Assembly: GCF_003431325.1 (NCBI RefSeq)
Contig: NZ_CP010515.1
Span: forward strand, 1,116,001-1,180,000
Source: Acidilobus sp. 7A
GTDB lineage: Archaea; Thermoproteota; Thermoprotei_A; Sulfolobales; Acidilobaceae
DNA length: 64,000 bases
Direction of reading: 5' to 3'
Shown: positions 34,803 through 39,097 of the stretch, piece after piece
Numbering within the stretch: position 1 is the stretch's first letter
How the letters are laid out: the number at the start of each line of letters is the position of its first letter
Made by a program: the position numbers and the translations under genes
Notes under the pieces: generated by a model
The model's input: the letters and a program-made list of their open reading frames with translations, nothing else
What the model was told of the DNA's origin: nothing
The model's database searches: none

Positions 34803-35897
34803 ATGAGAGGAAAGGTTGGGCTCATTGTAAACCCCATAGCAGGCATGGGGGGAAGGGCTGGACTGAAGGGGACAGACGGCGAAGCGTATGAGAAGGCCAT
34901 AGCCCTTGGGGCTAAGCCTGTGTCCCCGCTAAGGGCTAGGGAGTTCATCAGGTCGCTGCGCTCCCGCATAAGCCTGGTGACGCCTGAGGGCATAATGGGG
35001 GAGGACGAGGCACTAGCAGAGGGACTAAGGCCTGAAGTAATAAAGTGCGTTAATAACAGTACCAGGACGACGGCCGAGGACACTGTAAGGTGCGCAGAAC
35101 TCATCTCTAGAGATGTTGACATCATTGTGTTTGTCGGGGGTGACGGCACGGCCAGGGACGTTGCGAGCTCTGTCGACCTTAGCCTGCCGATCCTCGGCGT
35201 TCCCTCCGGCGTTAAGATGTACAGCGGCGTCTTTGCTGAGACCCCCTCGGCTGCGGCTGCTGCCCTCCTCAGGTTCATTAACGGCGAGGCCCAGCTAGTT
35301 AAGGCCGAAGTCCTTGACATTGACGAGGAGGCCTTTAGGAGGGGCGAGCTCAGGGTGAGGCTCTACGGCTACGCCCTCGTGCCAGGGGCGCCGGAGGTTG
35401 TGACCAGCGGCAAGGAAGCTGGCGCCCACGACGAGGAGGAGCTGAAGTCTATAGCCAAGTACGTGAGGGAGAACATGGAGCCTGACACACTTTACCTTCT
35501 CGGCCCTGGGACTTCTGTCGCGGCAGTGGCCGAGGAGCTTGGCGTCCAGAAGACCATCCTTGGGGTGGACGCCGTGTATAACGGTAAGCTTATAGGCTCT
35601 GACCTTAATGAGCGGCAGATCCTTGAGCTACTTAGGGTTTACAGAAGAGCCAAAATAATAGTGTCCCCCCTTGGCGGCCAGGGCTTTCTATTTGGGAGGG
35701 GCAACCAGCAGCTGAGCCCTGACGTGCTAAGGGCTGTTGGACACAATAATGTTATCATAATCTCGACTAAGGACAAGCTCGTGAGGCTAAGGACGCTCAG
35801 GGTGGACACCGGAGACGAGGAGCTGAACTCCATGTTTAGGGGCTACAGAAGAGTGATAGTGGGCTATGGTGAGGAGGCAGTGGTCCTAGTGTCGTAA
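34803..35897 (+). CDS. NAD-kinase-like protein, archaeal COG3199 type
   Basis: 364 residues of the ATP-NAD kinase/diacylglycerol kinase superfamily. VGLIVNPIAGMGGRAGLKG at the N-terminus and IIVFVGGDGTARDVASS (the GGDG motif) mark the nucleotide-binding domain; GVPSGVKMYSGVFAETP follows. A C-terminal section has SPLGGQGFLFGRGNQQLSP. Archaeal COG3199 members are annotated as ATP-NAD kinases but their substrate has not, to my knowledge, been generally proven. Read divergently from the pilin-like gene. Confidence 0.8.
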   Translation: MRGKVGLIVNPIAGMGGRAGLKGTDGEAYEKAIALGAKPVSPLRAREFIRSLRSRISLVTPEGIMGEDEALAEGLRPEVIKCVNNSTRTTAEDTVRCAELISRDVDIIVFVGGDGTARDVASSVDLSLPILGVPSGVKMYSGVFAETPSAAAAALLRFINGEAQLVKAEVLDIDEEAFRRGELRVRLYGYALVPGAPEVVTSGKEAGAHDEEELKSIAKYVRENMEPDTLYLLGPGTSVAAVAEELGVQKTILGVDAVYNGKLIGSDLNERQILELLRVYRRAKIIVSPLGGQGFLFGRGNQQLSPDVLRAVGHNNVIIISTKDKLVRLRTLRVDTGDEELNSMFRGYRRVIVGYGEEAVVLVS

Positions 35898-35902
35898 GCC
35901 AT

Positions 35903-36046
35903 AGGAGGTGGCGAAGGGGGAGGGCCATCGAAGGCCCTGCGGCGCGTGCCGCGGGGTCTCCAGAGGGTCACGTCTGAGGTCCTGGGGGCTTGGGGCCCTC
36001 AGAGCCTTTTGCGTGACCCTTTAGTGGCCCTCTCCTTCGCCACCGG
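35903..36046 (-). ncRNA. Candidate structured noncoding RNA with a three-way junction
   Basis: On the minus strand GGTGGCGAAGGAGAGGGCCA near 36043 pairs with an almost fully complementary segment ending near 35905, giving a closing stem of about 20 bp. Inside are a stem built from GGGTCACG and CGTGACCC with an apical CTGAGG/CCTCAG helix, and a GC hairpin around CCGCGGC...GCCGCAGG. The minus-strand box CCTTATATATCC (36063-36078) is about 25 bp upstream of the first stem, the right distance for a transcription start at 36046. No protein frame fits. It lacks the consensus bits I would need for RNase P or SRP RNA, so the class is unknown. Confidence 0.45.
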
Positions 36047-36062
36047 TTTGCCTACTACTGTC

Positions 36063-36078
36063 CCAAGGATATATAAGG
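36063..36078 (-). promoter_or_regulatory. TATA-box region for the candidate RNA
   Basis: GGATATATAAGG on the plus strand reads CCTTATATATCC on the minus strand. It lies about 25 bp before the first paired base of the hairpin RNA and far from any coding start, so it most simply serves that RNA. Confidence 0.4.
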
Positions 36079-36177
36079 GGTTAAGCTAGTTACACAAACT
36101 TACCCATGCTTTAAAACGCCCTACGTAGCTGTTTCAGCTTTCATGTAGGTTTATAAGTTGTCACCACAATCAGCATA

Positions 36178-36370
36178 TACAGGAGGTACGTGTCTGCGCA
36201 CTCAAGATGTGGGGCCCCTGGGGTGGCCCTGAACGCCCCCAAGCCCGATGAAACCCCGAGCGGGGTGCGGGGGAACAGGGATGAGGCGGTGACCGTAAGG
36301 CAACACGAACCTATATGAGAGTTGAACCCCTCCCGCTGCTGAGGGCTTTAGTCCGCGCCGCACACTCAAT
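36178..36370 (+). mobile_element. Relic of tnpB 3' end with right-end palindrome (IS605/IS1341 type)
   Basis: A start-less open frame from 36181 to TGA 36316-36318 encodes ALNAPKPDETPSGVRGNRDE and RQHEPI, which I recognise as the style of the unconserved C-terminal tail of crenarchaeal TnpB proteins. The same DNA folds strongly (ACCCCGAGCGGGGT), and GAGAGTTGAACCCCTCCCGC followed by TGAGGG (36316-36346) resembles the terminal hairpin of such elements, where omega-RNA is encoded. The catalytic domains are absent. TTTATAAG at 36151-36158 would start transcription near 36180. The remaining 36371-36470 shows nothing coding. Confidence 0.5.
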
Positions 36371-36470: not shown

Positions 36471-37733
36471 TTACGTCTTAGGGTTAATCAGGAGGCAGGA
36501 GGCGTAGTGACCCTCAGAGACCCTCCTCATGGGCGGCTCCATGTAGTTTGCTAGCTTAACTAAGACGCCGCCGCCCTCCTCCTTCAGAGAATCTATTGAC
36601 TTCAGGGCCCTTGCGGTGTCAGACTCGGCGTCCACCATTGACTTTAGCTCTGAGGAGGTCACGCCTGTAACCACGAGCGTCGCCTCGTCAAGGACCTTGA
36701 TTGATAGCCTGTCGCTCAGCTCAACATACCTAGCCTCAGCCAGCCTGCGAAGGGCCTCGGCAACCTCGTCGGCCGTCCAGCCGCACTGGGCCACCGACAC
36801 GGGGCACCTAGGGTGGAACCTGCAGCCCCTGGGCGGGTTCACAAGGCTAGGGACGTCACCCTTGAGCACGACCCTCCTCATCAGCTTGCCTACCTGCGGC
36901 ACAGACGATATGAGGGCCTGGGTGTATGGGTGCGCTGGAGACCTTATCACAGCGGCCTTGGGCCCCCTCTCCATCAGCTTCCCTGCGTACATAACGTATA
37001 TCCTGTCAGCCATGTATGAGACCACAGATATGTTGTGAGTTATGAGGAGCATAGCCATATTATACTTCTCCCTGAGCCCCTTCAGAAGCTCGAGTATCTC
37101 AGCCTGCACCGACACGTCAAGTGCGCTTGTGGGCTCGTCGAGGACTACGAACCTGGGGTTTGTGGCTATGCCCCTGGCTATGGCTACCCTCTGCCTCTGG
37201 CCGCCGCTGAGCTCGTGCGGGTACCTCTCAGCAAACTCCCTTGGCAGCTGGACCTCCTCTAGCAGGTCGTAGACCCTTGAGAGCGCCTTATCCTTGTCAG
37301 CAAAGCCCGTCTCTATCATGGGCTCTGCTATTATGTCGGCTATCGTAAGCCTGGGGTCGAGCGAGGAGTAGGGGTCCTGGAAGACTATGCCTACCTCTCT
37401 CCTGAACCCCTTAAGCGCTCTGCCCTTCAGCTTTAGGACCGAGTACTTGGAGGCTATCTTACTGGCCGCCTCTGGGTCGTTCCTTTCAAGCGCCGCGTCG
37501 TAGTTCTCAAGCTCCCCGTCAGGTATTTTGAAGAGCACCTCCCCAGCCGTCGGCTCGAGCAGCCTTATGAGCATCCTCCCCAGCGTCGTCTTGCCACTGC
37601 CGCTCTCACCAACAAGGCCTACTATCTCGCCCTCGGCGACCTCTATGTTAACGTCGTCCACAGCCCTTACATATGCCCTCCTGACCCCTTTGACCGGGAA
37701 GTACATCTTAAGGTGTCTGCCGGCGATTATCAT
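36471..37733 (-). CDS. Opp/Dpp ABC transporter ATP-binding protein (second ATPase, OppF-like)
   Basis: 420-residue ATPase energising oligopeptide- or oligosaccharide-type import. Walker A GESGSGKTTLGR, Q-loop FQDPYSSLDP, signature LSGGQRQRVAIARG, Walker B FVVLDEPTSALD. After it comes the Opp C-terminal domain with CRFHPRCPVSVAQC, whose Cys can hold an Fe-S cluster in relatives. An insertion of about 45 residues (around GELENYDAALERNDPEAAS) separates Walker A and the Q-loop. ATG 37733 is chosen because GAGGTGA lies five bases upstream; the frame is open to 37769. Last gene of the five-gene operon. Confidence 0.9.
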   Translation of the reverse strand: MIIAGRHLKMYFPVKGVRRAYVRAVDDVNIEVAEGEIVGLVGESGSGKTTLGRMLIRLLEPTAGEVLFKIPDGELENYDAALERNDPEAASKIASKYSVLKLKGRALKGFRREVGIVFQDPYSSLDPRLTIADIIAEPMIETGFADKDKALSRVYDLLEEVQLPREFAERYPHELSGGQRQRVAIARGIATNPRFVVLDEPTSALDVSVQAEILELLKGLREKYNMAMLLITHNISVVSYMADRIYVMYAGKLMERGPKAAVIRSPAHPYTQALISSVPQVGKLMRRVVLKGDVPSLVNPPRGCRFHPRCPVSVAQCGWTADEVAEALRRLAEARYVELSDRLSIKVLDEATLVVTGVTSSELKSMVDAESDTARALKSIDSLKEEGGGVLVKLANYMEPPMRRVSEGHYASCLLINPKT

Positions 37734-37738
37734 TGTCT

Positions 37739-39097
37739 TCACCTCGCCCCCTCTGCGTAGAGCCAACATGCTACCTTGTGGCCGCCCCCTAGGTCAACCG
37801 TGGGCGGCTCCTTGGTCCTACATACAGGCATGGCGAATGGGCACCTGGGGTGAAACATGCAGCCGCTCGGCGGGTTCCTTAGGTCTGGCACCTCGCCCTT
37901 TATGCCCTTGAGTTCGTGGGGCTCTATCGTAGGCACTGCCTCCAGCAGCATCTGGGTGTAGGGGTGCTTTGGCTCCTTGAAGACGGCATCCTTTGGCCCC
38001 ACCTCAACTACCTTCCCAGCGTACATTATCGCTACCCTGTCTGAGACCTGGTAGAGGATGCTCAGGTCGTGGGAGATGAACATGTACGCCGCCCCTATGT
38101 CCTCCTTCAGCTCATTCAGGAGCTCAAGTATCTGGGCCTGCACCGTCACATCAAGTGCGCTTGTGGGCTCGTCGAGAATCACGAGCTCAGGGTTGTTTAC
38201 CATTGCGGCAGCTATTGCAACCCTTTGCCTCATGCCGCCGCTGAGCTCATGCGGGTACATTCTGACCACTTTCTCGGGCTCGGGCATGCCGAGGAGGCCG
38301 AGGAACTCCGCTGCCTTGACGTAGCCCTCCTTAAGCAGCTCCCTCCTTACCAGGCGCGACGCCAGCGGGTTCCTTGGAACTCTGTTAGCTTTAGCTACGG
38401 ACTCCAGCGGCCCCTTCACGAGCGGGTTAAGCTTCTCGCAACAGAGGCTTAGTACCCTGAGCTCTTTTACAGCATCATGGACGTCCCTCCTCCTCCAAAT
38501 CGATATTGCCTGGTCGTCAAGGCCTTCAAGCCCCTTGGCCTTCGCGTACTCCCTGAGGCCGCTATAGTCATTAGACTTCAAGTAGCCCAAGACGCTCTTT
38601 ACGTCATCCTTGGTAGCCTTGGCTCTTGCGAGCCTGCGCTTGGCCAACAGGGCTGGGTTGTGCTGAAGCAGAACCTCCGCTATCTGGAAGCCCACGGGCA
38701 GGACTGGGTTCAAGGAAGTCATGGGCTCCTGGAACACCATGGACATTTTGACGCCCCTTACGTTCATCATCTTCTTGTGAAGCTTCTTCAATACGTCCTC
38801 GTTCTTGTCAGGCCTGAACTTCTTAGCCCTCTTGAAGTAGTTCCTGAGCGGCTCTACCACGTCAAAGCTGTCGACCAGCACCTGGCCATCAGTGACGGCG
38901 GCGTTCCTAGGTATGAGGCCCATTATGGTGAGCCCCAGCGTGCTCTTGCCGCAGCCGCTCTCGCCGGCAACCCCCAGGACCTCGCCCCTGTATATCTCTA
39001 GGTCAACGCCGTTAAGCGCCCTATAGACGCCCCTCCTCGTGTAGTAGGCGAGCCTGAGGCCCTTTACAACAACTATGGGTTCCTTGCCCTGGCTCAT
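37739..39097 (-). CDS. Opp/Dpp ABC transporter ATP-binding protein (first ATPase, OppD-like)
   Basis: 452 residues. Walker A GESGCGKSTLGLT, Q-loop VFQEPMTSLNP, signature LSGGMRQRVAIAAA, Walker B LVILDEPTSALD, and the C-terminal CMFHPRCPFAMPVC cluster motif. Between Q-loop and signature lies an extra stretch of roughly 110 residues, charged and helical, making the protein longer than standard OppD. ATG 39097 overlaps the stop of the permease gene by four bases (ATGA). It pairs with the OppF-like protein as a heterodimer. Confidence 0.9.
   Translation of the reverse strand: MSQGKEPIVVVKGLRLAYYTRRGVYRALNGVDLEIYRGEVLGVAGESGCGKSTLGLTIMGLIPRNAAVTDGQVLVDSFDVVEPLRNYFKRAKKFRPDKNEDVLKKLHKKMMNVRGVKMSMVFQEPMTSLNPVLPVGFQIAEVLLQHNPALLAKRRLARAKATKDDVKSVLGYLKSNDYSGLREYAKAKGLEGLDDQAISIWRRRDVHDAVKELRVLSLCCEKLNPLVKGPLESVAKANRVPRNPLASRLVRRELLKEGYVKAAEFLGLLGMPEPEKVVRMYPHELSGGMRQRVAIAAAMVNNPELVILDEPTSALDVTVQAQILELLNELKEDIGAAYMFISHDLSILYQVSDRVAIMYAGKVVEVGPKDAVFKEPKHPYTQMLLEAVPTIEPHELKGIKGEVPDLRNPPSGCMFHPRCPFAMPVCRTKEPPTVDLGGGHKVACWLYAEGAR

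Follow-up and report, generated by a model that had tools for sequence, protein, structure and literature searches.

A structured element between two convergent genes

The window analysed here, a stretch of 64,000 nucleotides, spans C1:1116001-1180000 of a single-contig archaeal genome of 1,539,049 bases (G000), and all positions given without a contig name refer to it. It contains a gene for NAD kinase on the plus strand and, facing it, a gene for an oligopeptide ABC-transporter ATPase on the minus strand, which corresponds to the convergent arrangement described in the initial annotation. Between the two genes lies a structured element (Table 1), whose stem base follows the NAD kinase stop codon by 9 nt and which is separated from the end of the ABC gene by 426 nt in this species.

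Table 1. Features of the element, its predicted promoter region and the flanking genes (positions in the window).
Feature	Position	Strand	Evidence
Structured RNA element, 138 nt, three-way junction	35907..36044	- (predicted)	Fold z between -7.3 and -8.7; kept in 4 species, pairs changing in compensation
Closing stem P1a, 5' strand, 11 bp with 35907-35917	36034..36044	-	4/11 pairs change on both sides, G000 vs G003
Closing stem P1a, 3' strand	35907..35917	-	4/11 pairs change on both sides, G000 vs G003
Stem P1b, 5' strand, 8 bp with 35920-35927	36025..36032	-	Fold; mostly invariant
Stem P1b, 3' strand	35920..35927	-	Fold; mostly invariant
Hairpin P2 with internal loops (alignment helices 2 and 3)	35964..36020	-	8/20 pairs change on both sides, 3 species
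Hairpin P3 (alignment helix 4)	35929..35962	-	Double-sided changes in 4/13 pairs; all cells (100%) paired
Promoter-like box ACCCCTTATATA (putative BRE side and TATA)	36070..36081	-	Kept in 4 species; also ahead of protein genes (L006, L131)
Predicted transcription start zone	about 36045-36053	-	Box offset in L006; TATA-to-TSS distance in T. kodakarensis
NAD kinase gene, convergent on element	34803..35897	+	Pfam PF01513, PF20143
Oligopeptide ABC-transporter ATPase gene, convergent on element	36471..37769	-	Pfam PF00005, PF08352

When refolded as minus-strand RNA (36044-35907), the element forms a closing helix of 19 bp (11 + 8, with a 1x2 loop between the two parts) that surrounds a small junction with two hairpins, in good agreement with the helix of about 20 bp enclosing two further helices that had been proposed previously. 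A minus-strand segment of 201 nt reaches a minimum free energy (MFE) of -101.9 kcal/mol (z -7.3), a value that none of 200 shuffles equalled, and the bare 138 nt have an MFE of -89.4 (z -8.7). No other fold in the 64-kb window is as strong: when 3650 tiles of 140 nt, covering both strands, were scanned and fold energy was regressed on G+C content, the tile at 35911-36050 was the extreme outlier, with a residual of -6.7 SD on the plus strand and -3.4 on the minus strand, the next unrelated tile lying at -3.5. As expected from its suggested lack of coding potential, no ATG-initiated frame of at least 20 codons was found inside the element in four species, except in the scaffold-gapped copy of G001, where such a frame runs through the stretch of N.

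The structure is conserved in one genus and supported by covariation

All four species of the genus that were examined (G000, G001, G002 and G003) carry the element, invariably between NAD kinase and the convergent peptide-ABC-transporter gene. The copy of G003 (74% identity) was retrieved by DNA search at the same place and next to the same two flanking genes, whereas the equivalents in G001 and G002 were found by inspecting the region downstream of NAD kinase; that of G001 measures 136 nt, of which 20 are N of a scaffold gap, and that of G002 172 nt, both lying between NAD kinase and the ABC gene. In G001, the run of 20 N (L017:1410-1429) interrupts the hairpin region and is probably an assembly gap caused by the structure itself. 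Two genomes of another genus (G007 and G019) contain the same two genes side by side, about 20-30 bp apart and without the element.

Among 48 genomes of the family, a covariance model built from the window copy alone recovered the copies of G003 (70 bits) and G002 (29 bits), with no hit outside the genus, and a model based on three species returned the same three genomes only, out of 214 in the order, with the G001 copy, broken by N, falling below the threshold. Among these 214 genomes, the element is found only in one genus, with strict filters in both searches, under which diverged relatives could have escaped detection. Short DNA matches in G001:C9, G016, G031 and G041 are not homologous elements; the match in G001:C9 is a 20-base identity inside other sequence, the true G001 copy being located at the syntenic place. 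A NAD kinase search of genome contigs returned no member of the genus.

Between G000 and G003, seven base pairs change on both sides, including four in the 11-bp helix P1a, whose strands read GGTGGCGAAGG/CCTTCGCCACC in G000 and GGTGACAGGGG/CCCCTGTCACC in G003; P1b of G003 contains one C.A on the minus strand, which equals a G.U on the plus strand. In a structural alignment of three species (G000, G003 and G002), 17 of 52 pairs change on both sides. This alignment was fitted to the model and thus leans towards it, while the changes in P1a are readable directly from the sequences. Not one of 500 shuffles attained this level of double-sided change, and sliding the structure by 1-3 columns left 0-3 such pairs. 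Given these compensatory changes, which neither shuffling nor a slide of register reproduces, a chance fold can be set aside, and the comparison of the sequences establishes the element as an RNA structure under selection. The changes that the initial annotation, working from the sequence alone, had named beforehand as a check are thus present in the relatives, and the opposite case, a fold without covariation, is excluded.

The element does not belong to a catalogued RNA family

At the Rfam gathering threshold, no model matches at the element, and a scan at E values up to 10 returned chance microRNA and snoRNA models only, with 5S rRNA absent. The element therefore fits no catalogued family and is absent from Rfam 15. 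These results, together with the location of the RNase P and SRP RNAs at other places in the genome, uphold the previous view that it does not match tRNA, 5S rRNA, SRP RNA or RNase P RNA. ARAGORN and Rfam detected no tRNA or tmRNA in the window. The element resembles RNase P and SRP RNA in being a G+C-rich structured RNA of the same genome, but their genes are situated at other loci: neither the RNase P model (RF00373) nor the archaeal SRP model (RF01857) matches at the element, the true RNase P RNA gene lying at C1:564640-564955 (149 bits) and the best SRP RNA candidate (L011) at C1:887209-887518 (90.2 bits). This candidate scores just below the Rfam cut-off of 96.5 and may therefore be missed by automatic annotation. 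With 5S rRNA, the element shares a three-way junction closed by a terminal stem and a similar length; however, it lacks a match to the 5S model at E values up to 10, and its sequence is far more variable between species.

We also considered guide RNAs. A box C/D RNA, which is defined by box C (RUGAUGA) and box D (CUGA), was rejected because RUGAUGA occurs on neither strand in any of the four species. H/ACA RNAs are defined by an ACA box 3' of a stem-loop-stem hairpin (PMC4652768), and those of Crenarchaea are similar to the element in their size range and in having hairpins with internal loops (PMC4652768). By contrast, a closing stem of the element encloses a three-way junction where an H/ACA RNA would have a stem-loop-stem unit followed by ACA, and no ACA is kept: the motif is missing from both strands of the G000 and G002 elements and merely scattered in those of G003 and G001. 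Inspection by eye revealed no K-turn or K-loop (L7Ae site) that is kept between species.

A promoter-like box precedes the stem at a fixed distance

On the minus strand, the closing stem is preceded by a TATA box, ACCCCTTWTATA, that is kept in all four species, with G001 and G002 reading ACCCCTTTTATA. The stem had been placed about 25 bp after this box, and in our analysis the longer sequence CCTTATATATCC at 36068-36079 is indeed located about 24 nt before it. The distance from CCCC to the stem amounts to 34, 35, 35 and 36 nt in the four species, despite the divergence of the leader in G001 and G002, and the similarity between G000 and G003 starts just upstream of ACCCCTTWTATA. In a genome of another genus, the box recurs in this orientation (L006:1509, minus), 28 nt ahead of the ATG of a 307-aa frame whose product presumably resembles transcription factor B; in G000 it lies, likewise oriented, upstream of a 411-aa frame (L131:1500), which we take to resemble threonine dehydratase. 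Its position in L006 suggests that the mRNA has little or no leader and that the BRE side is C-rich in this archaeal family. As for ACCCCTTNTATA, which has only three occurrences in the genome, one of them precedes a protein gene; it is therefore no mark of RNA genes, and the idea of a promoter motif special to such genes was rejected.

In Thermococcus kodakarensis, the median TATA-to-TSS distance is 23 bp (PMC4247193); a similar spacing here would place the transcription start at about 36047-36053, immediately ahead of the stem. The same organism produces small antisense or convergent RNAs at gene 3' ends, which have a BRE/TATA promoter of their own, comparable to the promoter-like box seen here, and run convergent to the 3' end of a gene (PMC4247193). 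The element differs from them in that it is highly structured, need not overlap the gene, given the gap of 9 nt, and is predicted rather than observed to be transcribed.

Evidence on the functional strand

The initial annotation regarded the element as an independent RNA on the minus strand. While the conservation of the promoter-like box and its spacing in four species is in line with this view, the plus strand is indicated by stability and by the asymmetry of G-U pairs. Its fold is the more stable one in each of the four species, with MFE values and base-pair numbers of -108.9/60 (plus) vs -89.4/52 (minus) in G000, a difference absent from the initial annotation, and -102.8/56 vs -93.2/54, -133.1/72 vs -119.3/64 and -72.0/40 vs -66.2/38 in the other copies; in three of the four, the strands differ little in z-score. 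A strand-neutral fold contains 29 G-U pairs on the plus strand vs 11 on the minus strand (p 0.006, for four sequences that are related rather than independent a signal to which base skew also belongs). For the pairs that the aligned sequences have in common, in a structure derived from the minus strand, the wobble balance is 9 (minus) to 6 (plus). The wobble pairs thus give conflicting evidence, with the fold counts arguing for the plus strand and the balance in the alignment deciding for neither. A keto skew makes G-U pairs likelier on the plus strand and the minus-strand loops A-rich; at nearby fourfold sites the skew is small (0.05), compared to 0.03-0.16 in the element. In favour of the minus strand, its unpaired bases are A-rich and A outnumbers U, as is the case in RNase P RNA. 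Against it, there is no T-run terminator beyond the stem, and a transcript of this strand would enter NAD kinase in antisense orientation 9 nt past the stem.

If the plus strand were functional, the element would be the 3' UTR of the mRNA for NAD kinase, where a stable structure shields the end of the transcript, prevents read-through or is excised as an RNA, and the TATA-like box would belong to another transcript or be incidental. Such a role accords with the higher stability and base-pair number of the plus strand in all four species, its excess of G-U pairs (29 to 11) and the proximity of the stem base to the stop codon (9 nt), but it leaves the constant TATA-to-stem distance behind a diverging leader unexplained; in addition, the z-scores hardly separate the strands in three of the four species, and G007 and G019 have the same two genes without the element. 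We consider it a possible but rather unlikely alternative. Still less probable, in our view, is a barrier that works in both directions, with the hairpin forming in both convergent transcripts, ending or stabilising both and preventing them from running into each other. As an almost symmetrical inverted repeat, the element folds well as either strand, and it lies between convergent genes in four species, as such a barrier would; however, a plain inverted repeat would suffice for this purpose, whereas the three-way junction and the stretches CCACUAAAGGG and CCAAGCCC kept between G000 and G003 suggest more, and the end of the ABC gene is 426 nt away in G000.

An independent minus-strand RNA of about 145 nt is favoured because the TATA box is kept at a fixed distance from the stem and also occurs, in that orientation, ahead of protein genes. 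From these sequence features, the functional strand is probably the minus strand.

Two of the four species contain CACCTCCT at the closing stem and in the positions immediately following it (window 35903-35911, minus; L012:2700-2708), as presumably found at the 3' end of 16S rRNA. These positions read CACCGCCT and CACCGCTCCT in the other two, and the anti-Shine-Dalgarno-like tail CACCUCCU after the stem, being limited to two of four species, was set aside.

A candidate stand-alone archaeal RNA

The explanation that we prefer, and hold to be moderately probable, is a genus-specific gene for a structured non-coding RNA on the minus strand. Its TATA box at 36070-36076 would recruit RNA polymerase, such that transcription starts near 36050. 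The resulting transcript of about 145 nt is predicted to fold into a Y, in which a long, G+C-rich closing stem joins the ends and two hairpins branch off a small junction. It may then act in trans as a stable stand-alone RNA, most likely as a scaffold for a bound protein, with the closing stem protecting the RNA ends at high temperature. Whereas the structure, its maintenance by compensatory change, its constant position and the conserved promoter-like box at fixed spacing are observed, transcription, strand, exact ends and the scaffold role are inferred. A 5' end beside a long, G+C-rich closing stem, the stretches kept between G000 and G003 (CCACUAAAGGG, CCAAGCCC and CUGGA) and a promoter of its own would fit a stable, trans-acting RNA with a bound protein.

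To our knowledge, few crenarchaea-specific structured RNAs have been described beyond housekeeping and guide RNAs. It is tempting to speculate, albeit tentatively, that the element represents a new family of stand-alone structured archaeal RNAs that is found in one genus of hot-spring crenarchaea, has its own promoter and serves in trans as the core of an undescribed ribonucleoprotein. The combination of covariation, synteny and a promoter-like box across species of the genus, in a single-copy element absent from Rfam 15, makes it worthy of attention. Similar to the candidate structured RNAs obtained by comparative genomics (Weinberg et al., 2010; PMC2864571), it is lineage-restricted, intergenic, supported by covariation and devoid of an assigned function; unlike them, it is not among the Rfam 15 families and is confined to one archaeal genus. 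The main text of that study does not mention crenarchaea (Weinberg et al., 2010; PMC2864571).

A dispersed repeat adjoins the element

On the far side of the promoter, positions 36117-36331 are occupied by a dispersed repeat, matched 26 times in the genome and 10 times in G001. Its final ~130 nt, starting at about 36200, are shared with G008, G039 and G042, which belong to other genera. The repeat has no match in G003, where only about 80 nt separate the element from the matched end of the ABC gene. With such a multicopy neighbour and inverted repeats of its own, the element might be taken for a decayed mobile element or an inverted-repeat (MITE-like) insertion. However, it is single-copy in the genome, occupies the same place in four species and shows compensatory pair changes, and the adjoining repeat ends before it and has no match in G003, which nevertheless has the element. 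Copy number, synteny and covariation thus refute a mobile origin, which we regard as extremely improbable, and the transposon inverted-repeat family that the initial annotation had named as a refuting case is excluded by the finding of one copy. The repeat itself looks like a small non-autonomous mobile element; our guess would be a non-autonomous IS200/IS605-type element with a conserved RNA end.
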